Shown here one piece after another: positions 751 through 38,983 of a stretch of 42,052 nt of DNA. The stretch spans positions 1 through 42,052 of IMG/VR virus record IMGVR_UViG_3300025010_000020. One strand, 5' to 3'. This stretch comes from a virus. The position numbers were made by a program, and so were the translations under genes. Numbering within the stretch: the first letter of the stretch is position 1; every line of letters begins with the position of its first letter. A model generated the notes under the pieces. It made no database searches. It was not told the origin of the DNA and saw nothing but the letters and a program-made list of their open reading frames with translations.

Positions 751-1650
751 ATGGAAATCATAGTAAAAACAATTTTTGGTAGTCATCTATATGGTACTAA
801 CACTCCTGAGAGCGATATTGATTACAAAATAGTATATAGAGATTCATTAAAGGATATTGTTCTTGGTAAAAATAAAGAAGAGAAGAGAACAGTTAACGAG
901 GATCATAGTGAAGAGGCTGAGTATATAGAACTGAGAAAGTTCTTAAGGGATCTTGCGGAAGGTCAAACATACGCAGTAGATATGTTTTTTACTCCTGATA
1001 AGATGATTATTAGAAAGAGTGAAGTGTGGGAGCAAATCAAACAACAAAGAAGAAATTTGTTAAGCAAGGATTGCAAATCATTCATTGGATACTGTATGGC
1101 ACAAGCTAAACTATACAGTGATAAAGGCAGAAGGATTAGAGGATTATTGGCAGTCCAAGAAGAGATCAAGGATATTCCTAAGATTGAACGAGTTGGTCTA
1201 GAACTTAAAACAATGCAATTAGTAGAGAAGGATATAAAGAGAAACGGAGAAGATATTAAAGAATTACTCTATGAATTGAATGGGAAGTTCTACACCCCTA
1301 ATATGACAGGTAAGCAATTAAGAGAGAGAATAGAGGCAGGGCTTAAGAGGTATGGAAGAAGATCTAAAGAAGCAAGTGTTAGTTTGAGAGATTGGAAAGC
1401 AATATCTCATGCTTACAGGACTGTTAGAGAATTAAAGGAATTGGCACTTAATGGGTATATAAGATTCCCATTAGAGAGTGCAGATGAATTACTAGAAATT
1501 AAACGAGGTACATGGGGTGGGTTTAAGGATCAGAGATTAGAATGGGAGTTAGCTGGAGCAATAGCTGATGTGAGAGCTTCTGCTAATCTGCAAGATAAGG
1601 TAGATCAAGACTGGTTAGAAGATTTTATATATTCATTTTACGTTAAATAA
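751..1650 (+). CDS. Predicted nucleotidyltransferase (Pol-beta superfamily, COG3541-like)
   Basis: 299 residues. The N-terminus carries the nucleotidyltransferase signature of the DNA polymerase beta superfamily: G10-S11 followed by Y14-G15-T16 and S21-D22-x-D24, that is GSHLYGT..SDIDYK, with D77 in AVDMFF a likely third metal ligand. The C-terminal two thirds is helical and charged. The family is common in phages; some members transfer nucleotides to RNA or protein, but the substrate of this subgroup is not known to me. With the phage RNA ligase and kinase/phosphatase about 10 kb upstream on the circle, and the tRNA gene about 2 kb downstream, an RNA 3'-end role is possible but inferred. It is 8 bases upstream of the VRR-NUC gene. 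The fold call is firm; the function is open. Confidence 0.8.
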   Translation: MEIIVKTIFGSHLYGTNTPESDIDYKIVYRDSLKDIVLGKNKEEKRTVNEDHSEEAEYIELRKFLRDLAEGQTYAVDMFFTPDKMIIRKSEVWEQIKQQRRNLLSKDCKSFIGYCMAQAKLYSDKGRRIRGLLAVQEEIKDIPKIERVGLELKTMQLVEKDIKRNGEDIKELLYELNGKFYTPNMTGKQLRERIEAGLKRYGRRSKEASVSLRDWKAISHAYRTVRELKELALNGYIRFPLESADELLEIKRGTWGGFKDQRLEWELAGAIADVRASANLQDKVDQDWLEDFIYSFYVK

Positions 1651-3502: not shown

Positions 3503-3611
3503 ATCAGACGGACAAGGCTGTTGGCACGGTATTCCGAGTAATGGGACTATAAGTGATCCCAATGCCCTCGTAAGAGTACGGTAAACCGTGATGGGTAGCG
3601 AGTGGTCTGAT
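3503..3611 (+). ncRNA. Structured RNA candidate A, immediately 5' of the tRNA
   Basis: A 109-base non-coding block closed by a perfect 7-bp stem ATCAGAC (3503-3509) / GTCTGAT (3605-3611). Inside are CGG-tatt-CCG (3527-3536), TGGGA/TCCCA (3542-3546 with 3557-3561), CTC-gtaa-GAG (3567-3576), ACGG-TAAA-CCGT (3578-3589) and TGCCC/GGGTA (3563-3567 with 3593-3597). It is visibly richer in G+C than the genes around it. Only two bases separate it from the tRNA, so the two are probably processed from one transcript. It lacks a T-arm, so it is not a second tRNA, and I do not recognise it as RNase P, tmRNA or a known riboswitch. Confidence 0.55.
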
Positions 3612-3613
3612 AG

Positions 3614-3687
3614 TCGGGGATGGAGAAGCGGTCTATCTCGCCTGTTTCATACACAGGATAGCAAAGGTTCGAATCCTTTTCCCCGAA
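3614..3687 (+). tRNA. tRNA with anticodon CAT (Met or lysidine-type Ile)
   Basis: A full cloverleaf can be drawn: acceptor TCGGGGA (3614-3620) / TCCCCGA (3680-3686) with discriminator A; D-arm GAGA/TCTC; anticodon stem CCTGT/ACAGG with loop TTCATAC, giving CAT; T-arm AAAGG-TTCGAAT-CCTTT (3663-3679). No CCA is encoded. CAT tRNAs are Met, initiator Met, or Ile2 reading AUA after lysidine modification; AUA is frequent in this A+T-rich phage, which favours but does not prove Ile2. C38 in the anticodon loop is unusual. Confidence 0.9.
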
Positions 3688-3692
3688 TTATG

Positions 3693-3779
3693 ATCCCTGC
3701 ATCTGGCAGTTCACAAGACTGAGCATTATGGTCTTTATGTCTATTATAAATATACAATGCTTTAGCTGGGTGCAAGGAT
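3693..3779 (+). ncRNA. Pseudoknot-forming RNA candidate B between the tRNA and 3801
   Basis: Outer arms ATCCcTGCA (3693-3701) and TGCAaGGAT (3771-3779) pair with one mismatch. Inside, AAGAC (3715-3719) pairs with GTCTT (3731-3735), and AGCATT (3722-3727), lying in that loop, pairs with AATGCT (3756-3761): the arrangement of an H-type pseudoknot. It ends 21 bases before the ATG at 3801, so it may be a leader element of that gene or a third product of the RNA cluster. Confidence 0.45.
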
Positions 3780-5923: not shown

Positions 5924-6577
5924 ATGGTAAACGAACGACAAAAAAAAATGTTGGAAAATGTTGGAAAAGGCAAGTCCTTTTATTCAGCTATGAAGGATGC
6001 TGGATACTCCGATAATTATGCCAAAAACCCTCAGCGACTAAAGCAAACTAAGACATGGGGTAACCTTGTTGAGAAATATTTGCCAGAGAAAGCTATTGTA
6101 TCAGGTCTAAAGACCTTGCTCAAAGCTGAAACCAATGGCAGATTCACTTTTTCAGGTGCGTATACTAAGGATATGATAGAAGAAGCGATGAAAACTTTAG
6201 GTTATAAATCTAATAAATATGTAGCAAATAAAGTAACTGAAACTAGATATAATAAAAAAGGTGATACCTACGAGGTTACTTTCTGGGATGTGATTACTAG
6301 GAAGCCAAGCATCATGGGTATTTCAAAGGGTGCTGATATGGCTTTGAAGATTAGGGGTAACTATGCTCCTGAAAAGATGGAGACTACAATCGTACCTGAA
6401 ACTAAGACTAAAGAAGAGAAGGAGAATAGGATCAAGGAATTAGAAGAGGAGAAAGAATTATTGGAGCAAGAAGAAAAGAAGAGAGCAGAAGAGTTAAGGA
6501 TACAGTATTACAGGGATGCTAAGGAAAAAAAGAATCTAAAGAATAAAACTACTGCCAATGAAAACAGTAACAAATAA
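5924..6577 (+). CDS. terS: Terminase small subunit
   Basis: 217 residues. The N-terminus (residues 5-55) has the helix-turn-helix layout of small terminases: QKKMLENVGKGKSFYSAMKD..GYSDNYAKNP..L..TKTWGNLVEKYLP, which would bind the phage packaging site. A central beta-rich section is followed by a long Glu/Lys coiled-coil tail (~155-217) likely for oligomerisation. A good ribosome site (GAGGTAGG) precedes the ATG. The gene ends inside the start of the large subunit (20-base overlap), the usual arrangement. Confidence rests on the N-terminal pattern plus position. Confidence 0.85.
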   Translation: MVNERQKKMLENVGKGKSFYSAMKDAGYSDNYAKNPQRLKQTKTWGNLVEKYLPEKAIVSGLKTLLKAETNGRFTFSGAYTKDMIEEAMKTLGYKSNKYVANKVTETRYNKKGDTYEVTFWDVITRKPSIMGISKGADMALKIRGNYAPEKMETTIVPETKTKEEKENRIKELEEEKELLEQEEKKRAEELRIQYYRDAKEKKNLKNKTTANENSNK

Positions 6578-8090
6578 AGACATAATACTGGATAGGAAGA
6601 TAGCCATATTAGAGGAGCTTATTGAACTAAAGAAAGCAGATGTTAGTGAACTTGATGATAAATACAAATTCTATTCCCCTATTGGTAAGATGGAAGAGTT
6701 CTTAGATAACGCTCTAAGTGGGAAACCAATGGTATCTTTGATGTCTTCAGCTAATGGTACAGGTAAATCTACAGCTATTACAAACCTCATATGGCATTTA
6801 GTACGACCTTGTGACAATCCTTTCTTCCAACAGGAGCTTATGGTTAATTGGAAATACAAGAGAAGGATTAGAATCGTGTCTGATACTGCAACTATCAAAG
6901 GTACTCTTGTTCCAATGCTTGAGGAATATTGTCCTAAAGAATTGTTAGATGCAAAGGGAGAGCCACCAGCAGTCAAGAACAGTAAGGGCTTCCTTTCATT
7001 ATGGACTATTCCAGCAGTAGATGGGGGAGAAGATTGGATAATTGATATTATGACTTACGAACAAGCTCCTAAACAGTTTGAATCAGCAAACATTGGATTA
7101 GTATTGTTTGATGAACCACCACCACAGGATATATATAAAGCATCCATTGCTCGTTTGAGAAGTGGTGGTATTTGTTTGATATTCGCTACTCCATTGACTG
7201 GTAGTGCATGGATGTATGACAAGATAGTAGCTAATGATGACCGAGAAAAGTTCTCAAGGTACTATTTAACGGCAGAAGTAGAGGATGCGTGTGAAGAACA
7301 CGGCGTGAGAGGCTTTCTAAAGCACGAAAATATATTAAGGATGATACGACAGTACGATCCAGCAGACCTACAGGCTCGTGTATTTGGTAGATTCCAACAC
7401 CTGATTGGATTGGTATTCAAGCAATGGAATAGATCAATTCATGTCATAGCCCCATTCAATGTTAGCAGAAGGGATTATTGTGTAATTAGATTGTGGGATT
7501 CACACCCTAGAGTACCAGAGGCTATTATATGGGTAGCAATAGATAAAGATGGAAGAAGTTTTGTTGTAGACGAATTGTATTTAGATGAGCCATTGAGCCA
7601 ATTAGTTCCGAAGATTAAGACGATAGATTCAAAGTATAGAATGGTTGGTGAGTTAGCTGAACCTGCAATGTTTAATGTAGACAATAGAATATCTAGCACA
7701 TATTCTATAGCTGATTTATTAAACGGAGCTAAGTATGGATTGCATCTCACACGAGCAAGTAAACAAAGAGAACATGGTATCACACTCATTAGCGACGCAC
7801 TTTCATACAGGATAGAAGGTGGTGAGTTCACTAAGTCCCCTATGTTGTTTGTTGTTGGTGCTAATTGTCCTCGCTTCGTATATGAGATTGAACATTGGCA
7901 ATGGGATGAGTGGAGAGGTTCAGGTGCGGACTTAAAGAATCCTAAGGATAAACCACTTGATAAGGATGACCATATGATGGAAAATATAGGTAGATGGTTC
8001 TTAGCGAATCCAAAGTTTGTAGAAGAAGAAAGTAGATACAGAAGGCACAAATCAGCTGAGGTATCAGTTGATGATGATGACCCTTATTAA
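6558..8090 (+). CDS. terL: Terminase large subunit (packaging ATPase/nuclease)
   Basis: 510 residues. ATPase domain: Walker A SSANGTGKST (63-72), Walker B with catalytic acids GLVLFDEPPP (~178-188), then the coupling motif region IFATPLTGSAW. The nuclease domain follows, with an RNase H-like first strand CVIRLWDSHPR (~308-318), AIDKDGRSFVVDELYL, and a final acidic segment PLDKDDHMMENIGRWFL. It pumps DNA into the prohead and cuts the concatemer. The first Asp sits in a WDSH context rather than the commoner DPG form. The start is at ATG 6558 within the end of terS. Confidence 0.93.
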   Translation: MKTVTNKDIILDRKIAILEELIELKKADVSELDDKYKFYSPIGKMEEFLDNALSGKPMVSLMSSANGTGKSTAITNLIWHLVRPCDNPFFQQELMVNWKYKRRIRIVSDTATIKGTLVPMLEEYCPKELLDAKGEPPAVKNSKGFLSLWTIPAVDGGEDWIIDIMTYEQAPKQFESANIGLVLFDEPPPQDIYKASIARLRSGGICLIFATPLTGSAWMYDKIVANDDREKFSRYYLTAEVEDACEEHGVRGFLKHENILRMIRQYDPADLQARVFGRFQHLIGLVFKQWNRSIHVIAPFNVSRRDYCVIRLWDSHPRVPEAIIWVAIDKDGRSFVVDELYLDEPLSQLVPKIKTIDSKYRMVGELAEPAMFNVDNRISSTYSIADLLNGAKYGLHLTRASKQREHGITLISDALSYRIEGGEFTKSPMLFVVGANCPRFVYEIEHWQWDEWRGSGADLKNPKDKPLDKDDHMMENIGRWFLANPKFVEEESRYRRHKSAEVSVDDDDPY

Positions 8091-8394: not shown

Positions 8395-10437
8395 ATGATA
8401 AAAGAAATGAACAAGAAGTCTGAGAGCTATCAAGATCTTAAGAAGAAAACTGCTGAAAGAATTCCAAATGATTTTGCAAGAGATGCTTCTGAACCTCAAC
8501 TAGAGAGTGTCTTGAAGTCATTTACTTTATCTGAGGATGAGCAGTTCTTATTACTCAAGCAAATTAAGAATGAGGTAAAGGATGATTCAGCTGAGATAAA
8601 TGAAAGAAGTGTTATATGGCAGAAGAGAATGAAGTTATATAACAACCAGATGAGAGATGCAGATAAGGTTGGAGAGCCACTTATGTTTACGATATTCAAT
8701 AGTCTGTATGCTTCATTGTATGACGATAGAATGAATGTTACTTGGAAAGCTAGAACACAAGAAGATATCAAGGTAGAAGAGAACTTAAATGACTTAGCAC
8801 AATATGACTATGATGAAATGGGTAAGGATCAGTTAGATGCTCAACAGATATTCGATTCATTGTTCTATTCATACGGTTTGATAGATATGATTGGATTTAA
8901 TGGAAAGACTAAGACTCCTTCACCAAAGATTATTGATCCTACAGTATTCATGTACGATACAAGTGCAGATAGTATTGATGGTTCAAGTGATGGTAGTGGT
9001 GCAATGAAACACTTGGGTTGGAGAATAAGATATTCAAAGAGAGTAATTCAAAGTAACAAGTTCTTTAATAGCTCAATTCTTAATTATCTTACGCCATACA
9101 ATAGAAGTGGAGAGGGAGATAGCGATGATATGTCATTGTCTGCATCTGAAAGAGCAAGATTAGAATCAATGGGATTAGAGCTTCAGGATGTAAATCAAGC
9201 TTCTGTAATGGGTGGAGATAACACTGTTTATGAATTCATTCAATGGAGAACGTGGTATAGAGGCAGAAGAGTACTTGTTATTGTTGATCCTACATTTAAG
9301 CATATCTTAAGATCTGCAATCATTGATGTAGATAAATGGATGGTTAATGCAAAGAGGCTATGGACAGTATCACACCAGTTCCAAGGAGTATCTGTACCAG
9401 ATTTGACTGAGGATAAACAGAGATGGAAGAGTGTAATGCTTAATACAATGATTAAATCCGTTAGAGCTGATCTATTCCCTATGTATGAGTATGACGAAGA
9501 TAGTATTACTAATGAAGGTGATTTGAAGTTTGGATTTAACAAGTTTATAGCTAAGAAGGGATCTGCTCAAGCTATCATGCCTATCAATAAATCTACACCA
9601 AACCAAGCTCTATATGAAAGTATCATGACCTATCTTGATAGTTCGGCACAGAGAGCTACTGCTACGCCTGAATTACAACAGGGTGTAATAAGTAAAGAGG
9701 CTAGAACATTAGGAGAACTTAACCTTGTTGCTCAAAAGGTTGATACTAGGTATTCTCTTGCTGTTAAGAACTTAATGCAAGGAGATAGAGAATTCTGGAA
9801 GATGTGGTATATGCTATATAAGAAGTATTTCCAAGCTGGTCTATCCGAGAAGGTCATTAGAATCAGTGGTTTAACTAACGAATTCAGAAAGCTCAACAGA
9901 GGAAATATCATTGCATTCTCTGATCCTGATGTATATGTAGAAAGTAGAATCCTTACAGAAGCTCAGAACATGAGAAAGTTACAGCAATTTGTAGTTGTAG
10001 CTAACATGGCAAGTCAAGATCCATCTACCAACAGACGATTTATTCTTAAGTATATTGCTCAATTATCTGGTATGCAGAACGATATGATTGATAGAATGAT
10101 GCCACCTACTACGGATGAGATCATTGCACGAGCTCAAAATGAATTGCTAAGTAACAATAAACCTGCTGAGTTTACTGTAAATGATAATCACTTAGTTCAC
10201 TTAGAGGAACATTTGAAAGCAACTGATACATCTGCAACTAGAATACACTGTGATATGCACAAGATAGCATTGCTACAGATACAGAAGAATAAGGCTCTTG
10301 CTCCTGAAGGAATGATGGCTGATGTTGGTTTGCAATCTGGTGAGGCTGGTATGCAACCATCTAATGTTGATGGTATGGGACAGCAAGGCATGAAGATGGG
10401 TTTTGGTACACCATCACAACAAGCAAGTTTAAGTTAA
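8395..10437 (+). CDS. Portal protein
   Basis: 680 residues, in the conserved slot between terL and the scaffold/capsid genes, at the size expected for portals of short-tailed phages. It would form the dodecameric ring at the packaging vertex through which DNA enters and leaves. The N-terminal ~90 residues are charged and helical, then a mixed domain with repeated W-R-I-R-Y / WRTWYRGRRV strands, then a long helical stretch (~380-600) including TPELQQGVISKEARTLGELNLVAQKVDTR, and a Gln/Met/Gly-rich tail (~640-680, GMMADVGLQSGEAGMQPS). No catalytic motif is expected. The call rests on size, order and helical pattern, not on a diagnostic motif. Confidence 0.82.
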   Translation: MIKEMNKKSESYQDLKKKTAERIPNDFARDASEPQLESVLKSFTLSEDEQFLLLKQIKNEVKDDSAEINERSVIWQKRMKLYNNQMRDADKVGEPLMFTIFNSLYASLYDDRMNVTWKARTQEDIKVEENLNDLAQYDYDEMGKDQLDAQQIFDSLFYSYGLIDMIGFNGKTKTPSPKIIDPTVFMYDTSADSIDGSSDGSGAMKHLGWRIRYSKRVIQSNKFFNSSILNYLTPYNRSGEGDSDDMSLSASERARLESMGLELQDVNQASVMGGDNTVYEFIQWRTWYRGRRVLVIVDPTFKHILRSAIIDVDKWMVNAKRLWTVSHQFQGVSVPDLTEDKQRWKSVMLNTMIKSVRADLFPMYEYDEDSITNEGDLKFGFNKFIAKKGSAQAIMPINKSTPNQALYESIMTYLDSSAQRATATPELQQGVISKEARTLGELNLVAQKVDTRYSLAVKNLMQGDREFWKMWYMLYKKYFQAGLSEKVIRISGLTNEFRKLNRGNIIAFSDPDVYVESRILTEAQNMRKLQQFVVVANMASQDPSTNRRFILKYIAQLSGMQNDMIDRMMPPTTDEIIARAQNELLSNNKPAEFTVNDNHLVHLEEHLKATDTSATRIHCDMHKIALLQIQKNKALAPEGMMADVGLQSGEAGMQPSNVDGMGQQGMKMGFGTPSQQASLS

Positions 10438-11623: not shown

Positions 11624-12589
11624 ATGATAAGTCAAACTACAATTCCTCATGGTGTAAATAATTACTATGATAGGAACATGCTCAGACGAGCAAAACCTGC
11701 TCTTTATCACACCAAGTTCGTTCAGGTAAGAGATTTACCTAAGAATGAAACTGATAAGATAAAGTTCAGACGATACGGTGTGCTTTCTGCTGTTACAACT
11801 CCTCTTGTAGAAGGTGTAACTCCTGATGCACAAGACGCATCTACCTCCGATATTACTGCAACTATAGAGGAATACGGAGCATACTTCATCATTACAAGTA
11901 AAGTAAAGATGACAACTTTAGATCCACTCTTAAGTGAGTTATCTGGAGTTTTGGGTGATCAAATGGGTCTTTCATTGGATACAATCGCAAGAGAAGTATT
12001 TAATGCTGGTACTAACGTACAATTCGCTGGTGGTAGAACTGTTAGAACTGATGTTGCTTCTACAGATGTCTTAGATATTGGAGAGTTCCAAAAGGCATAT
12101 AGAACAATGCAGAGTGCTAACGCTCCTTTCTTAACAAGTAGAGTTAACGCTGATACTGGTTATGCAACATCTCCTGTAGATAGTGCATACTATGTTCTTA
12201 TTAACCCTATGGCAGTTAAGGATGTACAGTCAATCTCTGGATTCACACCTGTTGAGAAATATGCAAGTAAAGCAAATGTTCTTCCAACAGAAATTGGATC
12301 TTTTGGGAACTTTAGATTTATTACTTCTACAAATACAAAAATATTTGCAGGTGGTGGATCAAGTTCTATTGACGTATATACTGCTTTAGTATTTGCACAG
12401 GATGCAGTTGGTATCTCTAGAATCTCTGGTGAGGCTATGAGAACCATTACTAAGGCTGTCGGGTCATCTGGTGTTGCTGATGCACTTGATCAAAGAGGAT
12501 CAATGGGTTGGAAAGCAACTTTCGCTGCGGTCATCTTAAACCAAAGCTGGTTATTGAGAATTGAACACGCAATAAGTTCTATTTCTTAA
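11624..12589 (+). CDS. Major capsid protein, N4-gp56 family
   Basis: 321 residues. The sequence follows the N4-gp56 capsid family closely: a YYDRNMLRRAKPALYHTKF start (~14-32), K-I-KFRRYGVLSAVTTPLVEGVTPD, an ITATIEEYGAYFIITSKV E-loop-like section, LTxD-type helix LSLDTIAREVFNAGTNVQFAGG, and a C-terminal IFAGGGSSSIDVYTALVFAQDAVG region. It would assemble the icosahedral shell with an HK97-like fold. No N-terminal propeptide is evident. A weak ribosome site (TTAGG) precedes the ATG, and a terminator follows the stop. Probably the most abundant protein of the phage. Confidence 0.95.
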   Translation: MISQTTIPHGVNNYYDRNMLRRAKPALYHTKFVQVRDLPKNETDKIKFRRYGVLSAVTTPLVEGVTPDAQDASTSDITATIEEYGAYFIITSKVKMTTLDPLLSELSGVLGDQMGLSLDTIAREVFNAGTNVQFAGGRTVRTDVASTDVLDIGEFQKAYRTMQSANAPFLTSRVNADTGYATSPVDSAYYVLINPMAVKDVQSISGFTPVEKYASKANVLPTEIGSFGNFRFITSTNTKIFAGGGSSSIDVYTALVFAQDAVGISRISGEAMRTITKAVGSSGVADALDQRGSMGWKATFAAVILNQSWLLRIEHAISSIS

Positions 12590-17588: not shown

Positions 17589-18266
17589 ATGGGAAAAACA
17601 AAATTAAACGACAATCAAGTAAAAGGAACATTAAAAGGCGTTGTCATTTATACGACTGGAACTGCACAAACATATACTCCTTCTGCTGGTGTAACAAAGA
17701 TTGAGGTAGAACTTATTGGTGGAGGTGGCGGAGGTGGTGGTGGACAAGGAACAGCGTCAAATTATTGTGGTATGGGAGGTGGTGGTGGATCAGGTGGTTT
17801 CTGTCGCAAATTTTATGATAGTTTAGCAGAGAGTTACTCATATTCCGTTGGTGCTGGTGGGTCAGGTGGAAGTGCTGGAGCAAATGATGGTGGCACTGGT
17901 GGGGATACTACATTTGGAGATTTGACAGCGAATGGCGGTATTGGAGGAGATGGTGGTGCAACTGGTAACACAGCAGGTGTTGGTCTAAGGAGTTCTGGTG
18001 GTAGTGCTAGTGGTGGAGATATTAACATTGGTGGTAGATATAGTGAACCATGGGTTAGATTGACAGCTGGAATAGGTATGGCAGGAAGTGGTGGAGATTC
18101 TGTTCTGGGAAACGGTGGAAAAGGTAGAACAAGTACAGATGGGAGTGGAACTGGTTTAGGTGGTGGAATCGGTAGTGGCGGTGCAGGGGGTGGTGCATTT
18201 AGTGGTTCTGCTGATAGAGTAGGAGGAGGTGGTGGTGCAGGTATAATTATAATTCACGAATACTAG
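17589..18266 (+). CDS. Glycine-rich tail adhesin
   Basis: 225 residues, about a third or more Gly. After a short beta N-terminus (GVVIYTTGTAQTYTPSAGVTKIEVELIG) come repeated Gly runs separated by short loops, ending in GGGGGAGIIIIHEY. This is the pattern of phage Gly-rich tip adhesins, in which polyglycine II helices pack into a sandwich and the loops between them bind the receptor. The gene directly follows the tail fibre, as tip adhesins commonly do. The variable loops (for example CRKFYDSLAESYSYS and RYSEPWVRLTAG) would set specificity. Confidence 0.85.
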   Translation: MGKTKLNDNQVKGTLKGVVIYTTGTAQTYTPSAGVTKIEVELIGGGGGGGGGQGTASNYCGMGGGGGSGGFCRKFYDSLAESYSYSVGAGGSGGSAGANDGGTGGDTTFGDLTANGGIGGDGGATGNTAGVGLRSSGGSASGGDINIGGRYSEPWVRLTAGIGMAGSGGDSVLGNGGKGRTSTDGSGTGLGGGIGSGGAGGGAFSGSADRVGGGGGAGIIIIHEY

Positions 18267-18273
18267 TAATATA

Positions 18274-18408
18274 ATGAAAAAGAAACTAAACAAAATCATA
18301 CTAAGCCTTGCTATCGCTTCAGTATTAGTTAGCATCATATTGCTTTATAGCAAAGATATTTGCTTAACATTGGGTAGCTTCTTTATTTGGTTGTGGCTTA
18401 AATTATGA
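18274..18408 (+). CDS. Small membrane peptide, 44 aa, the only TGA-terminated gene
   Basis: ATG 18274 with basic start MKKKLNK, one hydrophobic helix (IILSLAIASVLVSIILLY), then KDICLTLGSFFIWLWLKL. It stops at TGA 18406-18408, overlapping the next ATG (ATGA). The codon after TGA is GTA and then TAG, so read-through would add only two residues. A holin-like or accessory membrane role is possible. It fills the gap between the adhesin and the repeat protein. Confidence 0.6.
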   Translation: MKKKLNKIILSLAIASVLVSIILLYSKDICLTLGSFFIWLWLKL

Positions 18409-19076
18409 GTATAGCAAACAGAAGTTACATAGGATCGGGGTATTTAGCAGATGGTTATCTAGTAGGAAAAAGAGCCGTTGGGGTTATCTATATTGTGGAA
18501 GTTTCTGATAGCTTTGGTGTACATGATAGTTTGTTAGGGAAAGGTATTGAGAAAAGAATTCAGGATATAGTTGGATTCACTGAACAGTTTGATAGGACAG
18601 CATCACTCACAAGATTCTTTCAAGATACATTTGGAGTTTCAGAAGTTCAATCTAAGAGAATTACTAAAACTATCAGAGATATCTTTGGTATCAGTGAGAA
18701 TTTTGCTAGAAGATTAACAATTACAATTAGATTAGTTGATAGTTTCCTTGCTTCAGATAATGTATCTAAAGTGATAACTAAATATTTGGTGGATGCTATT
18801 AGTTTGTCTGATAAAATTGTAAAATCTATTAGTAAGAGGTTTGTAGACTCTTTTGGAATAGGAGAAAGAATTGGAATGTACCTTAATGGTGTGTATCAGA
18901 GATGGTCAACAATTAAGAAGAGAATTACACAATTCTTTGATATTAAAAAGAGAACTGTAGAGTTCGAGAGTATAAGTAAGAGAGAGACAACGTACAATGA
19001 TATTGCAAAGAGAGATCTAGAGTATGATGATATTAAGAAGAGAGAAGTTACTTGGGGAGATATAACTAAACTTTAA
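18405..19076 (+). CDS. Virion repeat protein with 20-residue and 10-residue tandem repeats
   Basis: 223 residues. Residues ~30-160 hold about seven degenerate copies of an 18-20 residue unit like F.D.FG.SE...+.ITK (for example QDTFGVSEVQSKRITKTI, RDIFGISENFARRLTITI, VDAISLSDKIVKSISKRF). Residues 170-219 are five exact-length 10-residue repeats: IKKRITQFFD, IKKRTVEFES, ISKRETTYND, IAKRDLEYDD, IKKREVTWGD, then ITKL. Similar DSxSLSD-type repeats occur in phage structural proteins. Probably an elongated fibre or linker component. Its position inside the tail block supports this. The start overlaps the previous stop by ATGA. Confidence 0.8.
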   Translation: MSIANRSYIGSGYLADGYLVGKRAVGVIYIVEVSDSFGVHDSLLGKGIEKRIQDIVGFTEQFDRTASLTRFFQDTFGVSEVQSKRITKTIRDIFGISENFARRLTITIRLVDSFLASDNVSKVITKYLVDAISLSDKIVKSISKRFVDSFGIGERIGMYLNGVYQRWSTIKKRITQFFDIKKRTVEFESISKRETTYNDIAKRDLEYDDIKKREVTWGDITKL

Positions 19077-24307: not shown

Positions 24308-27300
24308 ATGGCTATATCATGGACAGTAATTGATGATGACGAAAAAGACAAGAATAAGAACAATGTCACTGGTGGTGATTTTATTCCTATTGAGAATAGT
24401 AGTATTTCATACTCGGTCATAGAGGATAATGTAGACCAGACACCTTCACAACAAGCTTCTCAAGAGAATAAAGCTTTCAATTCACCTACACAAACTGAGG
24501 AAGTGAAACAAGAAACCAAGAAGGTTGGTGTATTTCAACAAATTGGTGATACTATTAGAAATGTATGGGATAAACTAAAGACAGCTTCATATACTCCTAA
24601 TGCTAATGTTTCACAGGTTGATAATGATCTTCAACAGAAGATGGGAGAAGCAAATACTCAAGAGGTTGCACTAAAGGATGCTATTAAAATGAAAGTTAGT
24701 GATCCTGTAGCTTACTACGCAAATAAACCTTTCTACTCTACTGATGAGAAACTTGTTCAGAATGATAGAGACATACCAGCTGATACAGCAATTCAGAATA
24801 AGATTACAGCCTTTGGAAGCTACTACAACAGCCTAGATGATATAGGTAAGGCAAGTATTACTAATCCTATTAAGGATATGACTGATGACACTTACGCTTA
24901 CTATAAAATATCTGCAGACAATGTGCTAAATAAAACAAATGAGGATATTCAGTATCTTGAATCTTTAGGAGACAATGCAAATGCTGAACAGAAGAAGAGA
25001 TTGACTGTATTGTATGATCAACGAGAGAATTTACAATATGTAAAAGATGGTATTGTTAAGAACGAGAATTTTCTTAAGGGTCTGTTTGATAGCTTCCAGC
25101 AAAACGGATATGTTCCTTATATAGGTGGACTTGTAACTGGAACAATAGATGCTATTGATGCTTTCCATCTATTATCGGCAACTAGAAAAACTGAAAATGG
25201 TGAAGAACTTAATGATGCCGAAAAGAGAGTTATGAGTGAGGTTAAACTAAATGAAATTAAACAATTCTCTACAAATAAAGATATGGGTTACAGTATTGGA
25301 AAGGGTCTTGTTGATTCACTGTATTTAATGGCCGATTATATTGTAGCAGGTCTCACGCCGATACCTGATGAAGTAGTTATAGCTGGTGGAAAAGTTGCTA
25401 AAGTTGCTAGTAAGGCTATGAGTATGGCTATTAAAGCAGGGAAGGTAACACTAACCTCAGGAGTACCTAGAATTGCAGAAGATGTAGCACAGTACCAAAC
25501 ACCAGAGTATCAGTTTGACTGGAAGGATAACGATTTTGATATTGTAGGACAAGGAGACACAGCTGGAGAAGCATTGATTAAGTCCGTAGCAAAGGAGTAT
25601 GGAAACAATATAATAGAACTCGGATTAGGAGAAGCAATTAGTGGAACAGAATCTCTTGTTAAAACAGGTCTAGGAAAGATGATAGGAAAAGAGATAGGTG
25701 CTTCTAGTAAGAATGAAGTTGTCAAAGCTCTTGTAGAGAGTGGTGGTTGGAATGGATTCCTAGGAGAGTTTGCCGAGGAGATAGCACAGAAATATTACGA
25801 AGAAGGTGCTATTGATCAAAAGAATATCAAGGACATTAAATTCACACCAGAAGAAATTGCTTCCATTACAGCAAGTATTCTTATCATGCAAGGTGTAATT
25901 AGCACTGCTGAAAGCTATGGAGCTGAAGGACAGAACAGTAACGCTCAGGAGATAGCTGATAAAGCAGAGCAGAAGATAATAGAAACAATAAATAATGCTA
26001 CAGATAGGAATGACCAGACAAATATAAGTGATAGCCTAGAATGGTATCGTGGCAACAGAGAGGAGTTATTAAAAGATTATCCTAACGCTGAAACTGATTT
26101 TGAGAATAAAGTAAAGGAGCTTGGTAGCACAGAAGAGATAATGAATTACTTTTCAGACTTAAAAGGAAAGCAAGGAGATGTATTTAATAGTGCCAATGTT
26201 GATAACAGATCAGACGAAGAAGCATCTGTACAAACAGGATATACAATATTCTTTTCAAATCCTGAGGTTACTAAACTGTATGAACAGGGTTTAACAGATA
26301 AGGAGATAGTAGATAAATATCTCAAAGGAGAGATAGACACAAAACTTACAGATCAGAAGATTGAATTAGAAAATAAGATTAAGGAATCAATAGAAAGCAA
26401 ACTAGCTGTAGAAGATTTAAATCAACAGGAGCTTACAAAGTTAAGTGGAATGTATAGTGAGTTACAAGAAGCTGTAGTTGGTGAAAAGAAAGGCAGAAGT
26501 GCTATATATGACGATGCTACAAATAAAACGACTTATACAACTACTGGTGTCGGATATCCAGCATGGTTACCTGAGTCATTCAGAGATAAAGCTACTGTTG
26601 AGAAGGTTCTGGACTCTTTAGTAAATGAGGTTATTCCTGTTAAAGGAACTAAGGCATACAACCTATATCAACTAATACTACAAAATAGCAGAGGTGAGGA
26701 AGACTTCTTAGGTTATACAACAGCAAGGAGAAATGAAAGCAGAAGATATGACGACATACAATCTATGGATGATATCCGTAGAAACTTGGATATACTTCGA
26801 AAGGATATGGTGAAGAGTAAAGAATTGGAATCTAAACCTAAAACATACGATGCAGATATATTAACTGATTATGCAAGTAACTCTTTAGCAAAAACAGATG
26901 AGGGTTTAAAGAAAGCTAATAACTTACAAGGTGAAAAGGTCAGCTTTAAAGAAGCTGAATCTGGATTGGCTAATAATGGAAAGTATCTTAAAGAGAGAAT
27001 TGTCTTTGGAAAGAATGAAGCTGGTGAAATTATTATAAAAGATGGAAGACATCTATTAGAAGCATACAGACAATTAGATAAAGCAATTCCTCAGGATAAA
27101 GTTAAATTTGAGGATGGGGTGGAAGCTGTAGATGTGAATGAAAGCGAAGGAAGTATGAAGATGAAGAAGAAATCAAATACAGATGTAGAAACAGAATTTT
27201 ATAAAGCAGTTAAAGATCTCCAAACTACAGCTTACAAGAATCTTGATAATGAAGAAGATGCAAACGAAGACTTGGAACAGGAGAAATTTGATAAAGTATA

Positions 27301-30300
27301 TGAGTTAGCAAAACAATTAGGTATTAGAGTTGAATGGAACGATGCTGAACAATTCTATGATTATTTCTTTGATGGAATAAAGGATAAGCAAACTGCCTCG
27401 GAAGTAGTTCGTGATTTTGCAAAAGCAAATGGTATTGATGTAACTGTTAATCCTAATAATACAATTAGACTATATCATGGTACTACAGCAGAGAACGCTG
27501 AAAATATACTAAAAGAGGGATTCGATAGAGAAGCTGGATACTTATCATCATCTTTGGAAGAAGAAGTTGGTGGCGTAAATGGAGCTAGATATTATGGAGA
27601 TTCAATTATACAGGTTGATGTAGATCCTAGATACTTAATGTTTAGGGTAGAAGGAGAATTTGCGTTTAGTTCTAATGAAGCAATCTCAAATATACAGATG
27701 TTAGAAGATCCTACAACAGAAGAAGATAAATATGCAGAAGGAAGAGTAAACTTAGAGAGCTATGATGATAGAGGTACTAAGGTAGAGGTTAAAGAGCTTA
27801 GAGTGGCAGAAGAAGTTGTGAAGCTTGTAAGAAAGTATGCTAAGAAGGTTGGAGAGAAATATGTACCTAAGGGGGCTTTAGGAGCTTTCTATCTTAATAG
27901 TAAAGATATTAGATTAAAAGGAATGACTGATTTCTATGTAGCTTCTCATGAGATAGCACACGCCATTGATAATAAATTATCTATATCCATTGCAACAGGA
28001 AATGATGCTGTTAGAACTGAACTCATGAGTGCATATGTAGATATGTATCCTACAGCCAAGAATACTGATGAAGAGAAGACACAACTCAAAGAAGGGTTTG
28101 CTACACTGGTAGCTGAATATGTAAAATCTCCTGCTACTATGATAGAGAAGTATCCTCACGCAGTGAAAGAATTGCTAATGGAAGGTGGTAAGTATTACAA
28201 AGATACTGTTGGTGAATATATAAATGATTTAACTAATATTGTAATTAGATATCAATCATTAAATGATCTGGACAAATTTGGAGTTAGAATGGCGAAAGAT
28301 ATCCCTACAGTACCTAATACACTTTTCAAGAATAAGATCGAACAAGCTCTTAATGTTGTTCAGGATGATCTTAATGTAATAGAGAGATGGACAAAAGAGC
28401 AAGGTGTGTTTATGACCAAGGATGACTACGCACAGATGTTTAGATTCAGGAATCAAGTCAATGCTATTGTTGAGAATAACTACTCTACCAAAGAAGCTCA
28501 AAAACTGAAAGGAAAGAAAGGTGTAGAGGATTATGGAAGACTTGGGAAGCTATTTGGTGGAGTGCTTAACTATGTAGGAGGAAAGAATACCGATGAGTAT
28601 TGGAGATACAACCCATTAACAGCAAATGTAGAAAAGACATTAGATTACAACTGGGGTACTTTAAGAGCAAGATTGGCGATTAAAGGATTGTCCGATCAAT
28701 TCAATTACGCATTGGTTGCCAGAAGATCATATTATGACTATTTAAACAAAGATAATTATACAACCGAGATTAGAGATAGTCAGAAGAGACTAGCTGAGAT
28801 AGATGAGCAGTTAATAGCTCTAGATCAAGAAAGCAAGGGTGAGATAACTAATGAGATGAAAGAACTGAGAAATGAGAAGATATTGCTTGAAACAAACATT
28901 ACTGATTTAACTGAGAAACTAAAGTATGTAAATCAAGTTATTGAGAATGATGACTTCCCTAGAGATTTATCAGAGAGAGCATACCTGAACAGTAGAGACT
29001 TGTTTATATCTGAATATAAAATGTTCGATGAGCTTACTAACCAAGATCTATTACTTGCTGTAGAGTCTGGCAAACTATCGAAGGAGAAATACAATGAACT
29101 TAAAGATAACAAAGGATATGCTCCATTCAAAAGGATTGTATATGATGAAGTAATTGGAGAGGTAAGCCCTGCTGAAGCAAAGAATATTGCTAAGTTATCA
29201 GGAACTCAGATATCTTCTCTGAAGAAAAGAACTGGATCAACAAAAGAGATTTTGTATCCACTAGATAGTGCAATGAGAAATCACCAAGAGTTTGTTAGAA
29301 AGAGTATGAGTCAAATATCTGTTAATACTTTCCTTACTCCAAGAACAGTATCTATGTATGGAGATCTTATCAAGCCTGTTGATTACACAATGGGTATAGA
29401 GAACAACAAGGAGATATTGATTACAATGAATGATGGAGAGAAATCAGCCTATGCAGTAAATCCTATGATTAAGGAATGGATAGGAGAGTATCTAACACCA
29501 CAACAAACTAATCTTCTTGAGAATATACAACACGCATACAAGAGAATGTGGACTGCTGGAACTACTGGATCATATATACAATTTGCATTTACTAACTTAC
29601 CAAGGGACTTCATAAACTACACAACTCAAACATATCAGAAGAATGCTTTTAAAGCAGTAGGAAATCTATTCGCTGATACTGTTAAAGTAATAGGTGGAAA
29701 GTTAAAGAGTTCAAAGGAGTATGAATACTTTACAAAGTTCTTAGCATTAGGTGGACAGGAGCTTACGTTTGTTAGATGGATGGAAGGTGATTACAATACC
29801 TTTGATCAGAAGGTAACAGGTGAAATGAACGCTATTAAGAAACTTGGAAGTGCATTAAGCAAATTTGGCAATGGGCTTCTCAATCTAATCAGCTTCCCAT
29901 CTCATGTTTCGGAGCTTGTATTTAGAGCTACAGAGTTCATAGAAGCAAAGAAATCTGGAGACAGTGATTTGGTTGCATTGGAGAAAGCAAGAAGAGTAAC
30001 TACACCATTCCACATGAAGGGGTCTTACAAGCTACAAGGTAAGCATGGAGAGGTTACAAACCTTCCAAAGGTGTATCGAGCCATTCCGTTTGCAAATGCA
30101 CAGTTACAGGGCTTCACATGGGTTACAAGTAATTTTATTAACAGTCCTAAGATCAGACAAAGAATGATATTTGCTACAGCACTAATAAGTGCATTAGGTG
30201 TTGAAGAGTTACTTAGAGCATGGAGAAATGCAGACGATGATGAGAAACAACAGTTAAGAGATTTAACTGCTGAAGATCTTGGAAGATTTATTTTTATGCC

Positions 30301-31546
30301 AAATAAGAAGACTAATAACATGACTAGAATGGCAGTAGCCGAATGGGCTGGTGGAATAAGTGGATTTATCAATATGTTAGTCCTAGATACTATACTAGAT
30401 AAAGATAATACTAATTATAGACTTTCAGACTACACAACAGCACTTACAACGAGTATCCCTGATTCATGGAACTTCTTAGTACCTATGTCTGCATTGCTAA
30501 GTAAAGATGGTTGGAAAGGATTTACTAATGAAGTTGGAAAGAATCTTTTATCTCAAGTTCCTGCAATAACAAAACCTATCTTAGCTATTGCTGGATATAA
30601 AACATATCCTGACTTACTGCCAATAGAAGCTGACTGGCAAAAGAATAAGTTACCAGCAGATAGATTCAATGAAGGGACTTCAGCTCTTGCTAAGTGGCTA
30701 TTACAACAGAAGCTTCCATTTAGTAGAGAAAGACTTGGTGATTCACTTGGATTATCTCCACTTAAGTTAGATGCTTTACTAGAGTCATTTTTTGGTAGAG
30801 CTGTAGGGTACATTACACAGAAACCAGAAGCATGGAATTTAACCTCGTCTGTATTCAGAGATTACTATTTTGAATATGGTAGGAGGGTAAATGATTACTC
30901 TGTAGATAAAGAAAGAAATGATCAGTTGTATACCTCTATGAAGAATGGAAGCATTGACCTTACAAAGGATGAACAGATGGGTATATATATAAAGAAAGAG
31001 TTATCTAAAAAGGTTGAGAAATCTATCAAGGCTTATTCTGATGCTTACGACTCAAAGGATTTAGAAGCGATTAGCAACACAAGATCTAAAGTAATTAGTC
31101 TTATTGATCAATATAACAATGATGGTGTACCAGACGAAGTGAAAGCGTATCTAGAGAACCCAACACCAGACAATATGAAGCAGTTAATTAAAGAACAGGT
31201 AAGACAGGAAATTGGGGATAAAGATCTTGGAAAATATACAAAAGAAGAAAAGACACTAGCTAAAACAATAGGAGAGGACTTTAGGCAACAAGCATTACTT
31301 GCAAGAAGCGAATATGATTATGATCAGCTTTTATTTGGAGTAACAACACTAGCTGATAAGAGTACTAAAGTTTCTGAAGTAAAGACTGAAATAAATGATC
31401 CTGAAAAGTTCAGAGCTTATCTGACTAGCCTACGCTATGCAAATATGATTAGTGATGATTGTATTAAACAATTACTTGAAGATAAGGTAATAGATAAGTC
31501 CTTAAATAACTGGCTTACAACCAGAGAAACAAATACAAATTTCTAG
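24308..31546 (+). CDS. Giant polyvalent virion protein with metallopeptidase and ART-like segments, 2412 aa
   Basis: The largest gene, 17 percent of the genome. Recognisable parts in order: low-complexity start (~1-80); long helical region with Gly/Ala-rich hydrophobic stretches (~255-460); ParB-like strand-helix GEIIIKDGRHLLEAYRQL (~905-923); ADP-ribosyltransferase-like RLYHGTTAENAENILKEGF (1054-1072) followed by YLSSS and IIQVDVDP; zinc metallopeptidase H1214-E-I-A-H1218 with downstream E1262; helical coiled-coil zone (~1480-1570); and a C-terminal region with PFANAQLQGF (~1927-1936) resembling the LPD38-type domain of phage polyvalent proteins, ending in basic and acidic helices. Such proteins are injected with the DNA and act on the host early. 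No intact polymerase or muramidase domain was found in it. Domain boundaries are rough. Confidence 0.8.
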   Translation: MAISWTVIDDDEKDKNKNNVTGGDFIPIENSSISYSVIEDNVDQTPSQQASQENKAFNSPTQTEEVKQETKKVGVFQQIGDTIRNVWDKLKTASYTPNANVSQVDNDLQQKMGEANTQEVALKDAIKMKVSDPVAYYANKPFYSTDEKLVQNDRDIPADTAIQNKITAFGSYYNSLDDIGKASITNPIKDMTDDTYAYYKISADNVLNKTNEDIQYLESLGDNANAEQKKRLTVLYDQRENLQYVKDGIVKNENFLKGLFDSFQQNGYVPYIGGLVTGTIDAIDAFHLLSATRKTENGEELNDAEKRVMSEVKLNEIKQFSTNKDMGYSIGKGLVDSLYLMADYIVAGLTPIPDEVVIAGGKVAKVASKAMSMAIKAGKVTLTSGVPRIAEDVAQYQTPEYQFDWKDNDFDIVGQGDTAGEALIKSVAKEYGNNIIELGLGEAISGTESLVKTGLGKMIGKEIGASSKNEVVKALVESGGWNGFLGEFAEEIAQKYYEEGAIDQKNIKDIKFTPEEIASITASILIMQGVISTAESYGAEGQNSNAQEIADKAEQKIIETINNATDRNDQTNISDSLEWYRGNREELLKDYPNAETDFENKVKELGSTEEIMNYFSDLKGKQGDVFNSANVDNRSDEEASVQTGYTIFFSNPEVTKLYEQGLTDKEIVDKYLKGEIDTKLTDQKIELENKIKESIESKLAVEDLNQQELTKLSGMYSELQEAVVGEKKGRSAIYDDATNKTTYTTTGVGYPAWLPESFRDKATVEKVLDSLVNEVIPVKGTKAYNLYQLILQNSRGEEDFLGYTTARRNESRRYDDIQSMDDIRRNLDILRKDMVKSKELESKPKTYDADILTDYASNSLAKTDEGLKKANNLQGEKVSFKEAESGLANNGKYLKERIVFGKNEAGEIIIKDGRHLLEAYRQLDKAIPQDKVKFEDGVEAVDVNESEGSMKMKKKSNTDVETEFYKAVKDLQTTAYKNLDNEEDANEDLEQEKFDKVYELAKQLGIRVEWNDAEQFYDYFFDGIKDKQTASEVVRDFAKANGIDVTVNPNNTIRLYHGTTAENAENILKEGFDREAGYLSSSLEEEVGGVNGARYYGDSIIQVDVDPRYLMFRVEGEFAFSSNEAISNIQMLEDPTTEEDKYAEGRVNLESYDDRGTKVEVKELRVAEEVVKLVRKYAKKVGEKYVPKGALGAFYLNSKDIRLKGMTDFYVASHEIAHAIDNKLSISIATGNDAVRTELMSAYVDMYPTAKNTDEEKTQLKEGFATLVAEYVKSPATMIEKYPHAVKELLMEGGKYYKDTVGEYINDLTNIVIRYQSLNDLDKFGVRMAKDIPTVPNTLFKNKIEQALNVVQDDLNVIERWTKEQGVFMTKDDYAQMFRFRNQVNAIVENNYSTKEAQKLKGKKGVEDYGRLGKLFGGVLNYVGGKNTDEYWRYNPLTANVEKTLDYNWGTLRARLAIKGLSDQFNYALVARRSYYDYLNKDNYTTEIRDSQKRLAEIDEQLIALDQESKGEITNEMKELRNEKILLETNITDLTEKLKYVNQVIENDDFPRDLSERAYLNSRDLFISEYKMFDELTNQDLLLAVESGKLSKEKYNELKDNKGYAPFKRIVYDEVIGEVSPAEAKNIAKLSGTQISSLKKRTGSTKEILYPLDSAMRNHQEFVRKSMSQISVNTFLTPRTVSMYGDLIKPVDYTMGIENNKEILITMNDGEKSAYAVNPMIKEWIGEYLTPQQTNLLENIQHAYKRMWTAGTTGSYIQFAFTNLPRDFINYTTQTYQKNAFKAVGNLFADTVKVIGGKLKSSKEYEYFTKFLALGGQELTFVRWMEGDYNTFDQKVTGEMNAIKKLGSALSKFGNGLLNLISFPSHVSELVFRATEFIEAKKSGDSDLVALEKARRVTTPFHMKGSYKLQGKHGEVTNLPKVYRAIPFANAQLQGFTWVTSNFINSPKIRQRMIFATALISALGVEELLRAWRNADDDEKQQLRDLTAEDLGRFIFMPNKKTNNMTRMAVAEWAGGISGFINMLVLDTILDKDNTNYRLSDYTTALTTSIPDSWNFLVPMSALLSKDGWKGFTNEVGKNLLSQVPAITKPILAIAGYKTYPDLLPIEADWQKNKLPADRFNEGTSALAKWLLQQKLPFSRERLGDSLGLSPLKLDALLESFFGRAVGYITQKPEAWNLTSSVFRDYYFEYGRRVNDYSVDKERNDQLYTSMKNGSIDLTKDEQMGIYIKKELSKKVEKSIKAYSDAYDSKDLEAISNTRSKVISLIDQYNNDGVPDEVKAYLENPTPDNMKQLIKEQVRQEIGDKDLGKYTKEEKTLAKTIGEDFRQQALLARSEYDYDQLLFGVTTLADKSTKVSEVKTEINDPEKFRAYLTSLRYANMISDDCIKQLLEDKVIDKSLNNWLTTRETNTNF

Positions 31547-32347: not shown

Positions 32348-32611
32348 ATGGCAGGAAAAGGAATGTTAGTATATCAAAAGGCTGATTTTGTACCAGATCC
32401 AAAGATTGATTTTTCAAGGAACATGAAGACTAAGAAACAAGATTGGCGTAAAGCCGAGGCTGAAGTTTTGGGAGCTGATTTTGTGTTAGAACAAGAAGAT
32501 AGGATTAAAGCTGGAGTTAAAATGAGTCCTGAAGTCAGAGATCAATTAGTATCAGAAGGAGATAGAGTTCTCTTTAATCTAGATAAATTGAAGAAACCTG
32601 AAAATGAGTAA
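32348..32611 (+). CDS. Hypothetical small protein, 87 aa
   Basis: 87 residues, charged and mostly helical (KQDWRKAEAEVLGADFVLEQ, SPEVRDQLVSEGDRVLFNLDK). It overlaps the endolysin start by 8 bases, so the two are coupled. No membrane segment, so not a holin; perhaps a small regulator or structural part. Confidence 0.65.
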   Translation: MAGKGMLVYQKADFVPDPKIDFSRNMKTKKQDWRKAEAEVLGADFVLEQEDRIKAGVKMSPEVRDQLVSEGDRVLFNLDKLKKPENE

Positions 32612-33629
32612 AGAAGTAAACAGATTTTATGTTCCTACATTAAAAGACCTAGGGTGCTGGAGAGAGCTTAGAGACGATTCTAAGGGTGGAAAAGACTGGA
32701 GAGGATACAGATCCCTTTCTGGCATTTCTATCCTTTGGGGACACCATACAGTAACTCACCCAATAGGTGATGGAGCTAAGGAGATAGAAGTAGTTAGACA
32801 GATACACATGAATGGAAGAGGCTGGGGTGGAATAGGATACAACTTTATTATTACTTCAGAAGAACACAATGGGTATGCTGTTGTATATCAAATAGGAGAC
32901 ATAGGTTCAGTACGAGCTCACACTCCTAATAGTAAAAACTTTAGAAGTCTAGGACTTAATACTGGAAATGTATATGGTATTGGAATATCTGTAATAGGTA
33001 TGAATCATTTAGTAGAGCCAACAGATGCACAGTACAGAAGTTACCATGAACTTTTGAATGAATTGATCTATAATGAAAATGGAAGGTTACCTAAGATCAA
33101 ATCGTATGATGATTGGCAACCTCATTGGGCTGGGGATCAGACTGCCTGTTATGGTAGTAAGCTCAATAGAGATAAAGTAATTGATCCACCTAAAATAATT
33201 CAAGTAGAGGATCCAAAAATGATAGCAGAATTACAAAAACAAATAACAGATTTAAGTGCAAACATAGAGTCTTTGAAAGCTGACATTGCTAATAAGAATG
33301 TCAATATTGAAAGTCTTAAAACAACTATTGAAAATGTAGAAATAGATTGTCAAGCCCAAATAGATAATAACAAAAACGCTTATGAAGCAGAAATTGTAAA
33401 TCTCAATAACATAATAGAGAATAATAATAAGAAGCACTTAGAAGATATTGAGTTGCTCAAGAGTGAGAATCAAAATCAACTTAAGATCAAAGATGAAACG
33501 ATTAAAGATTTAAAGAAACAGATAGTGGATTTGAGTGGTGAACCTGAACCTAATGACCAACCAGAACCAGAGCCATTGAAGAAAAGCTTCTTGGCTAAAT
33601 TGCTAGATCTTCTCTTTAAAATAAAGTAG
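32604..33629 (+). CDS. Endolysin: N-acetylmuramoyl-L-alanine amidase with coiled coil and cationic tail
   Basis: 341 residues. Residues ~1-190 are an amidase_2/PGRP-type zinc amidase: LWGHHT with H47/H48, GWGGIGYNFII, VVYQIGDIGSVRAHT, ISVIGMNHL and PHW..DQTACYG (H174, T180, C182), the set that cuts the amide between muramic acid and the peptide stem. Then a long coiled coil (~197-310, repeated LK.E/I.NLN..I.) and a Pro/Glu linker (EPEPNDQPEPEP) leading to a cationic amphipathic end, KKSFLAKLLDLLFKIK (326-341). No signal peptide, so release should depend on the holin downstream. The tail could touch the membrane or cell surface. Confidence 0.9.
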   Translation: MSKEVNRFYVPTLKDLGCWRELRDDSKGGKDWRGYRSLSGISILWGHHTVTHPIGDGAKEIEVVRQIHMNGRGWGGIGYNFIITSEEHNGYAVVYQIGDIGSVRAHTPNSKNFRSLGLNTGNVYGIGISVIGMNHLVEPTDAQYRSYHELLNELIYNENGRLPKIKSYDDWQPHWAGDQTACYGSKLNRDKVIDPPKIIQVEDPKMIAELQKQITDLSANIESLKADIANKNVNIESLKTTIENVEIDCQAQIDNNKNAYEAEIVNLNNIIENNNKKHLEDIELLKSENQNQLKIKDETIKDLKKQIVDLSGEPEPNDQPEPEPLKKSFLAKLLDLLFKIK

Positions 33630-37634: not shown

Positions 37635-38777
37635 ATGAATTTAGACGTAAGAGGAATAGAAAAAGCAATACAATCAAAATTAGTACATAAACAGAAACAT
37701 CCTAAGTTGGATTTGTGGATATTGAATTATACCCACGAGTGCCAACACGCTCATGTGTGGGATGAAATTACTACGGTATGTAGAGGATTAGTAGTTGATA
37801 AAGATTGGAATGTAGTAGCTCGACCATTTGATAAATTTTTTAATCTAGGAGAACCTACATTTGATGGTGATATACCATTGTCTTTAACTGAAATAATTGC
37901 CAGACATGGTAAATACACTATAGAAGAAAAAGTTGATGGCAGTTTAGGAATACTATTTAAATATGGTAATGAGTGGGTTACAGCTACAAGAGGATCATTC
38001 AATAGTGATCAGGCAAAGAGAATGATTGAGATAATGAGAAACAGTTTTGAGAAAACAGATAAACCATTAGATCTCTCTAGCTTGACTTATGGGTATACTC
38101 ATTTGTTTGAAATTATATATCCAGAGAATAGAATTGTTATTGATTATAAAGGAGAGGAGAAGCTTGTTTATTTAGGATCTAGAAATAACGAAACAGGGGA
38201 ATATATTAAGATTGATATTCTTATGAGTTCTTTTGACAATCCTAAAATATATGATCACCTAGAACAGAATATTCCTAATGCTGAAGGGTATGTATTACAC
38301 TTTGATGATGAGTTTAGATTGAAGGTTAAGTTTGAGGAATACAAAAGATTACACAAAATATTAACTGGTCTTAATGTTCATGCAGTATGGGAGATGATGA
38401 AGAAGAGTAAAGACATGAAGCCATTGGAAGAGAATGTTCCTGAAGAGTTTATGATATGGCTTAAGTCTGTTAGGAGAGATTTACAGGGAAGGTTTGAAGA
38501 TATTAGATTTAGAAGTGCAAAAGCATTTGGAGAGATTAGCAAAGAGGTTTCTATCGGAGATGTAGATATTGTAGATTTTCGTAGGGAAGATTATCTTAAT
38601 ACTCAAAGGAAGTTATTCAGTGCATTTTCTCAGAGAGTAAGAACTTTAGATCCTAAGATACAAGGGATAGTTACAATGATGCTTAAAGGAAGTATGAAAG
38701 AATTTGTTACTCAGGAAATATGGGACTTAGTAGAGCCAACTGGTAACGTTAAATTTAAAGAGGATGAAGGAGAATAA
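37635..38777 (+). CDS. rnlA: RNA ligase, T4 Rnl1 family
   Basis: 380 residues, close to T4 RNA ligase 1 (374). Catalytic motif I EEKVDGS with the nucleotide-accepting lysine at K99, the same number as in T4; upstream R50 in CRGLVVD; motif III HLFEIIYPENRIVIDY with E159; motif IV NAEGYVLHF with E217; motif V RLKVKFEEY with K230 and K232. The C-terminal half is helical, as in Rnl1, where it helps recognise tRNA. It joins 5'-phosphate and 3'-OH RNA ends using ATP. With the kinase/phosphatase two genes downstream it forms a T4-type repair pair able to reseal anticodon-cleaved tRNA. Leader TATATATACAATA resembles those at 10811 and 35532. Confidence 0.93.
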   Translation: MNLDVRGIEKAIQSKLVHKQKHPKLDLWILNYTHECQHAHVWDEITTVCRGLVVDKDWNVVARPFDKFFNLGEPTFDGDIPLSLTEIIARHGKYTIEEKVDGSLGILFKYGNEWVTATRGSFNSDQAKRMIEIMRNSFEKTDKPLDLSSLTYGYTHLFEIIYPENRIVIDYKGEEKLVYLGSRNNETGEYIKIDILMSSFDNPKIYDHLEQNIPNAEGYVLHFDDEFRLKVKFEEYKRLHKILTGLNVHAVWEMMKKSKDMKPLEENVPEEFMIWLKSVRRDLQGRFEDIRFRSAKAFGEISKEVSIGDVDIVDFRREDYLNTQRKLFSAFSQRVRTLDPKIQGIVTMMLKGSMKEFVTQEIWDLVEPTGNVKFKEDEGE

Positions 38778-38983
38778 TGAAAAAGATATCTAAGGTGTGG
38801 AAAAGTCAAAGGTTTGAAGATAGATACGCATATGGGAATCATGGTAGTGGCAGAATAACAAGATCCCATACAGAAAAACTTACCAAATTCTTAAATGAGA
38901 ACAATATTACTAATTGGAAGGTTGTCTACTCTACAGAGGATAGTGTTGAAATTGTATATCTTAAGTTAGTTATAAACGAATAA
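38777..38983 (+). CDS. Hypothetical small protein between ligase and kinase, 68 aa
   Basis: Start and stop overlap the two RNA-repair genes (TAATG at both ends), so it is translated in step with them. A basic, Ser/Arg-rich first half (KVWKSQRFEDRYAYGNHGSGRITRSH) and a short alpha/beta end. Could be a partner or inhibitor in RNA repair; no family recognised. Confidence 0.68.
   Translation: MKKISKVWKSQRFEDRYAYGNHGSGRITRSHTEKLTKFLNENNITNWKVVYSTEDSVEIVYLKLVINE

Follow-up and report, generated by a model that had tools for sequence, protein, structure and literature searches.

TGA-avoiding phages compatible with code 11 have been described for Gracilibacteria and Absconditabacteria by Liu et al. 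2023 (PMC10746230), who proposed a dual-code host range for them. For standard-code bacteria, Wei et al. 2016 (PMC4989110) found that UAG is used in preference to UGA where RF1 exceeds RF2, reassignment of UGA not being required, and that the share of RF2 declines with AT-richness. The phage genome analysed herein (the window, the whole stretch of 42,052 nucleotides) agrees with the phages of Liu et al. in carrying no in-frame TGA, in its near-equal coding density under both codes, and in the use of stops other than TGA with a backup stop behind the rare TGA, but CRISPR spacers tied those phages to code-25 hosts, while the relatives of the present phage sit in prfB-bearing, standard-code MAGs. 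It agrees with the bacteria of Wei et al. in the dominance of TAA and the excess of TAG over TGA, for which no reassignment is needed, although that study dealt with bacterial genomes of measured release-factor levels and the present case is a phage whose host is inferred. The idea of an earlier note on this DNA, that the near-absence of TGA stops points to a host lacking efficient RF2 or to a lineage crossing between codes, thus has a published precedent in the TGA-avoiding, code-11-compatible phages (PMC10746230).

The main features of the genome are listed in Table 1. This 42-kb phage carries a set of RNA-repair genes, consisting of an RlaP-like nucleotidyltransferase, an Rnl1-type RNA ligase and a polynucleotide kinase; the top phage match of the kinase (43%) is MW202692 (Manatee Spring), in which a nucleotidyltransferase likewise adjoins the ligase and kinase. 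Neither DNA polymerase nor helicase was found among the phage proteins scanned. The TnpB protein shows up to 53% identity to its viral relatives, and no TnpA was found among the proteins scanned.

Table 1. Features of the phage genome (positions in the window)
Feature	Position	Strand	Remarks
Phage genome	1..42052	+ (all genes)	Complete, 42,052 bp, GC 35.3%; identical ends, terminal redundancy of 21 bp
RlaP-like nucleotidyltransferase (RNA repair)	751-1650		
tRNA, anticodon CAT (Met-type)	3614..3687	+	ARAGORN and Rfam
Terminase large subunit (TerL)	6558..8090	+	phrog_10250; 49% identity to G437; family-tree marker
Probable portal protein	8395..10437	+	Position after TerL; 47% identity to G437
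Major capsid protein (MCP)	11624..12589	+	phrog_1357, E 2e-64
44-aa hydrophobic ORF	18274..18408	+	Sole plausible gene with a TGA stop (18406-18408)
Next gene	18405..19076	+	ATG overlaps the TGA stop as ATGA
2412-aa protein with LPD38 domain	24308-31546		
N-acetylmuramoyl-L-alanine amidase endolysin	32604..33629	+	PF01510 and phrog_1493
T4 Rnl1-type RNA ligase (RNA repair)	37635-38777	+	
Polynucleotide kinase/phosphatase (RNA repair)	38983-39882	+	
TnpB (IS605 OrfB type)	40742-41869		

The mechanical census of longest ORFs on the plus strand, made with no trained gene finder and open to shifts of a few counts, gave 39 TAA, 14 TAG and 2 TGA when ORFs down to 31 aa were counted; a curated list of 50 genes gave 36 TAA, 13 TAG and 1 TGA, and the 48 ORFs of at least 60 aa gave 34 TAA, 14 TAG and 0 TGA. 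The near-total absence of TGA stops was thereby confirmed, and the share of TAG among the stops (29%) is unusually high compared with the relatives. The TGA-ending ORF at 3588-3722 was rejected as spurious because it overlies the tRNA gene. As the earlier note had observed, GTA TAG comes next in the reading frame after the stop of the 44-aa ORF, which thus has a backup TAG two codons on. Among the gene junctions in the curated list there is one 4-base ATGA overlap as against seven 1-base TAATG overlaps.

The deficit of TGA is not a matter of base composition, since TGA is common both off-frame on the plus strand (997, compared with 1077 TAA and 814 TAG) and between genes (52, compared with 114 TAA and 77 TAG); the third codon positions of the phage are 73% A+T. 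Under equal use of TAG and TGA, the observed ratio has a probability of 0.0005 at 14:1 and 6e-5 at 14:0, and the Fisher test against the sister genome G437, where TGA closes 10 of 41 genes, gave P = 2e-4 with 0/48 and 8e-4 with 1/54. Furthermore, the share of TGA was at least 13% in all of 22 other environmental phage loci and in six reference phages (16-35% of stops, at GC 29-45%). The deficit is thus real and statistically sound. The best placed of the alternatives is that chance and base composition sometimes leave a member of a TGA-poor family, with some 50 genes, without any TGA stop: under the family's own overdispersed spread, the probability is about 0.02-0.05 (0.017 for 0/48 and 0.046 for 1/54 or fewer), and five other members carry only 0-2 TGA stops. 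The off-frame and intergenic abundance of TGA, the TAG:TGA ratio of 14:0-1, the significant difference from the sister genome and the lack of any phage below 13% TGA in the two comparison sets all speak against it, and we regard this explanation as unlikely, albeit the one to be taken most seriously among the alternatives.

The possibility that the phage itself is recoded (code 4 or 25) was rejected on the basis of the ORFs read under table 4, the coding density, the count of TGA codons, the tRNAs and a search for release factors. The coding density is 0.924 under code 11 and 0.911 under table 4, and the main phage genes are not lengthened by table-4 reading; together with the zero in-frame TGA and the single TGA stop in 50 genes, these values agree with the sequence features by which the phages of Liu et al. 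2023 were characterized. The claim that the genes contain no internal TGA is correct, but under table 11 it holds by definition; it becomes informative because table-4 reading extends no main gene and raises no density. The same comparison of the two tables supports the statement that the phage genes can be translated whether or not UGA acts as a stop. No UGA-reading tRNA was detected in the phage by ARAGORN and Rfam, the only tRNA found being that with anticodon CAT, which is not of the TGA-reading type, and no PCRF match to a release factor was found in the phage. The set of 12,975 phage codons includes 0 TGA beside 167 TGG (Trp) and 904 GGN (Gly), which argues against a long stay in a host where TGA is sense: an exclusively UGA-sense host is unlikely, because under such mutation pressure TGG and GGA would be expected to drift to TGA.

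For comparison of stop usage among related phages, 80 viral loci were collected by TerL alignment and G437 was obtained by capsid search; a search of viral contigs with the portal protein alone returned no relative. The phage belongs with G437 and G001, having homologous TerL, portal and MCP, and the MCP homologue was present in all 15 relatives searched. The family defined by these three proteins, drawn from IMG/VR and Patescibacteria MAGs (including G437, G001, G441, L133 and L137), has a genome size similar to that of the phage and shares the three proteins at up to 47-51% identity, but in most members TGA accounts for 10-30% of stops as against 0 in the phage (genes of at least 60 aa). The sister genome G437 shares 47-51% identity with the phage in core proteins and has at least nine further genes in common with it, and the two are joined on the TerL tree with support of 100/99. 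The use of TGA at normal frequency by this sister (10/41) and by the next relatives G001 (9/38) and L052 (3/14; about 20-24%) is, at the level of the nearest known relatives, the outcome that the earlier note had named as refuting its interpretation, most of which fails while a part is supported. At the same time, TGA-poor genomes occur repeatedly in the family, as seen in G441 (0/39), G450 (0/30), G438 (1/27), G451 (1/29) and G443 (2/48), with about six changes of state to low TGA on the TerL tree; the TGA-poor trait is thus unusual among phages in general, and recurrent within this family. No jump in coding density under code 4 was found among the 80 TerL-related loci, and neither TGA as a sense codon nor in-frame TGA was found among the approximately 80 relatives. 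The scarcity of TGA is most likely a labile stop-codon preference within a standard-code phage family rather than the mark of an altered code.

Two further observations were made among the relatives. G441 carries a tRNA-Trp gene with anticodon CCA (L222, 5877-5953), and this additional Trp tRNA could increase UGA readthrough in that phage. In seven relatives (L072, L073, L096, L097, L098, L101 and L102), TerL is broken near residue 237 into two ORFs; no Rfam match indicating an intron was found in the six of these seven that were scanned.

The tree and the host data bear also on the proposal that the phage is kept free of TGA by replicating both in standard-code cells and in UGA-sense cells (code 25 Gracilibacteria or Absconditabacteria), where a UGA stop would be useless in one host and an in-frame UGA lethal in the other. 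Such a life agrees with a genome readable under both codes, with the lone TGA backed by TAG, with the occurrence of relatives in Patescibacteria, the phylum that includes the code-25 groups, and with the precedent in PMC10746230. However, a search of 362 sampled Patescibacteria genomes yielded no convincing CRISPR spacer match to the phage, giving short matches only, several of them in a glycine-rich repeat near 17716-17744, and no relative links the phage to a code-25 host; moreover, no family member carries in-frame TGA, TGA serves as a stop in the sister and in most relatives, and six separate losses of TGA would require six dual-host lineages. We therefore consider the dual-host life improbable, and give slightly less credit still to its extension, in which a stop set working under both codes lets one genome infect across the code boundary and arose several times in the family.

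The strong TerL matches in GTDB genomes numbered eight, five in Patescibacteria MAGs and the rest in Bacteroidia, Verrucomicrobiota and Negativicutes bins. The MAG contigs concerned are binned phage genomes, two of them with end repeats, and one complete genome lies in a Bacteroidia bin; assignment of the host from these contigs is only suggestive. TnpB was uninformative as a host marker, giving one distant match at E 1e-30 or better in one of 380 Patescibacteria genomes; that genome, G322, showed no match to the prfB model at all, not even from RF1, and is probably incomplete. The rate of Shine-Dalgarno sequences did not discriminate, being low in the phages and the sampled Patescibacteria alike. 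The Mollicutes, which had been suggested as host, are disfavored, since the phage encodes a peptidoglycan amidase endolysin, implying a peptidoglycan-bearing host.

A host lacking RF2 found no support either, since prfB was detected above the cut-off in all eight MAGs holding relatives; it likewise passed the cut-off in 42 of the 55 genomes from a single class and in 19 of 21 in the Patescibacteria phylum sample. What stands of the earlier host reading is that a relatively weak RF2 is plausible, while a recoded or RF2-lacking host is unsupported. An RF2-poor or RF2-less host in which UGA fades as a stop without reassignment would fit the marked bias of TAG over TGA expected of RF1-dominant termination (PMC4989110), but with prfB in all these MAGs, and with the complete exclusion of in-frame TGA implying that UGA still stops or harms, we consider it very doubtful.

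In the reading that we favor as probable, this is a tailed phage using the standard code (table 11), its host is probably of the Patescibacteria type, and drift has brought the phage genes to end in TAA or TAG. Among the Patescibacteria sampled, those with the standard code, a similar GC and a retained prfB show the same order of TAA, TAG and TGA, with TGA at about 10-12%, and the Patescibacteria samples with GC below 0.40 gave 148 TAA, 58 TAG and 25 TGA. In AT-rich hosts using the standard code, termination would lean toward the stops read by RF1, with TAA the commonest and TAG above TGA despite the presence of prfB, and a phage of about 50 genes under this pressure, with further mutation and drift, could be left with zero or one TGA. 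The balance between RF1 and RF2 may thus underlie the loss of TGA. Against this favored reading, 0/48 lies below the pooled patescibacterial rate of TGA (P about 0.01 at 9%), and the sister genome is no closer to the phage than 47-51% identity in the core proteins.

Stops free of TGA have previously been read as a sign of code crossing. Since the TGA-poor trait arose about six times within one standard-code family, it is not diagnostic by itself, and cannot alone identify recoded hosts or a dual host range. The family supplies phages that are related to one another but differ in having or lacking TGA stops, and hence a test set for the drivers of this loss.
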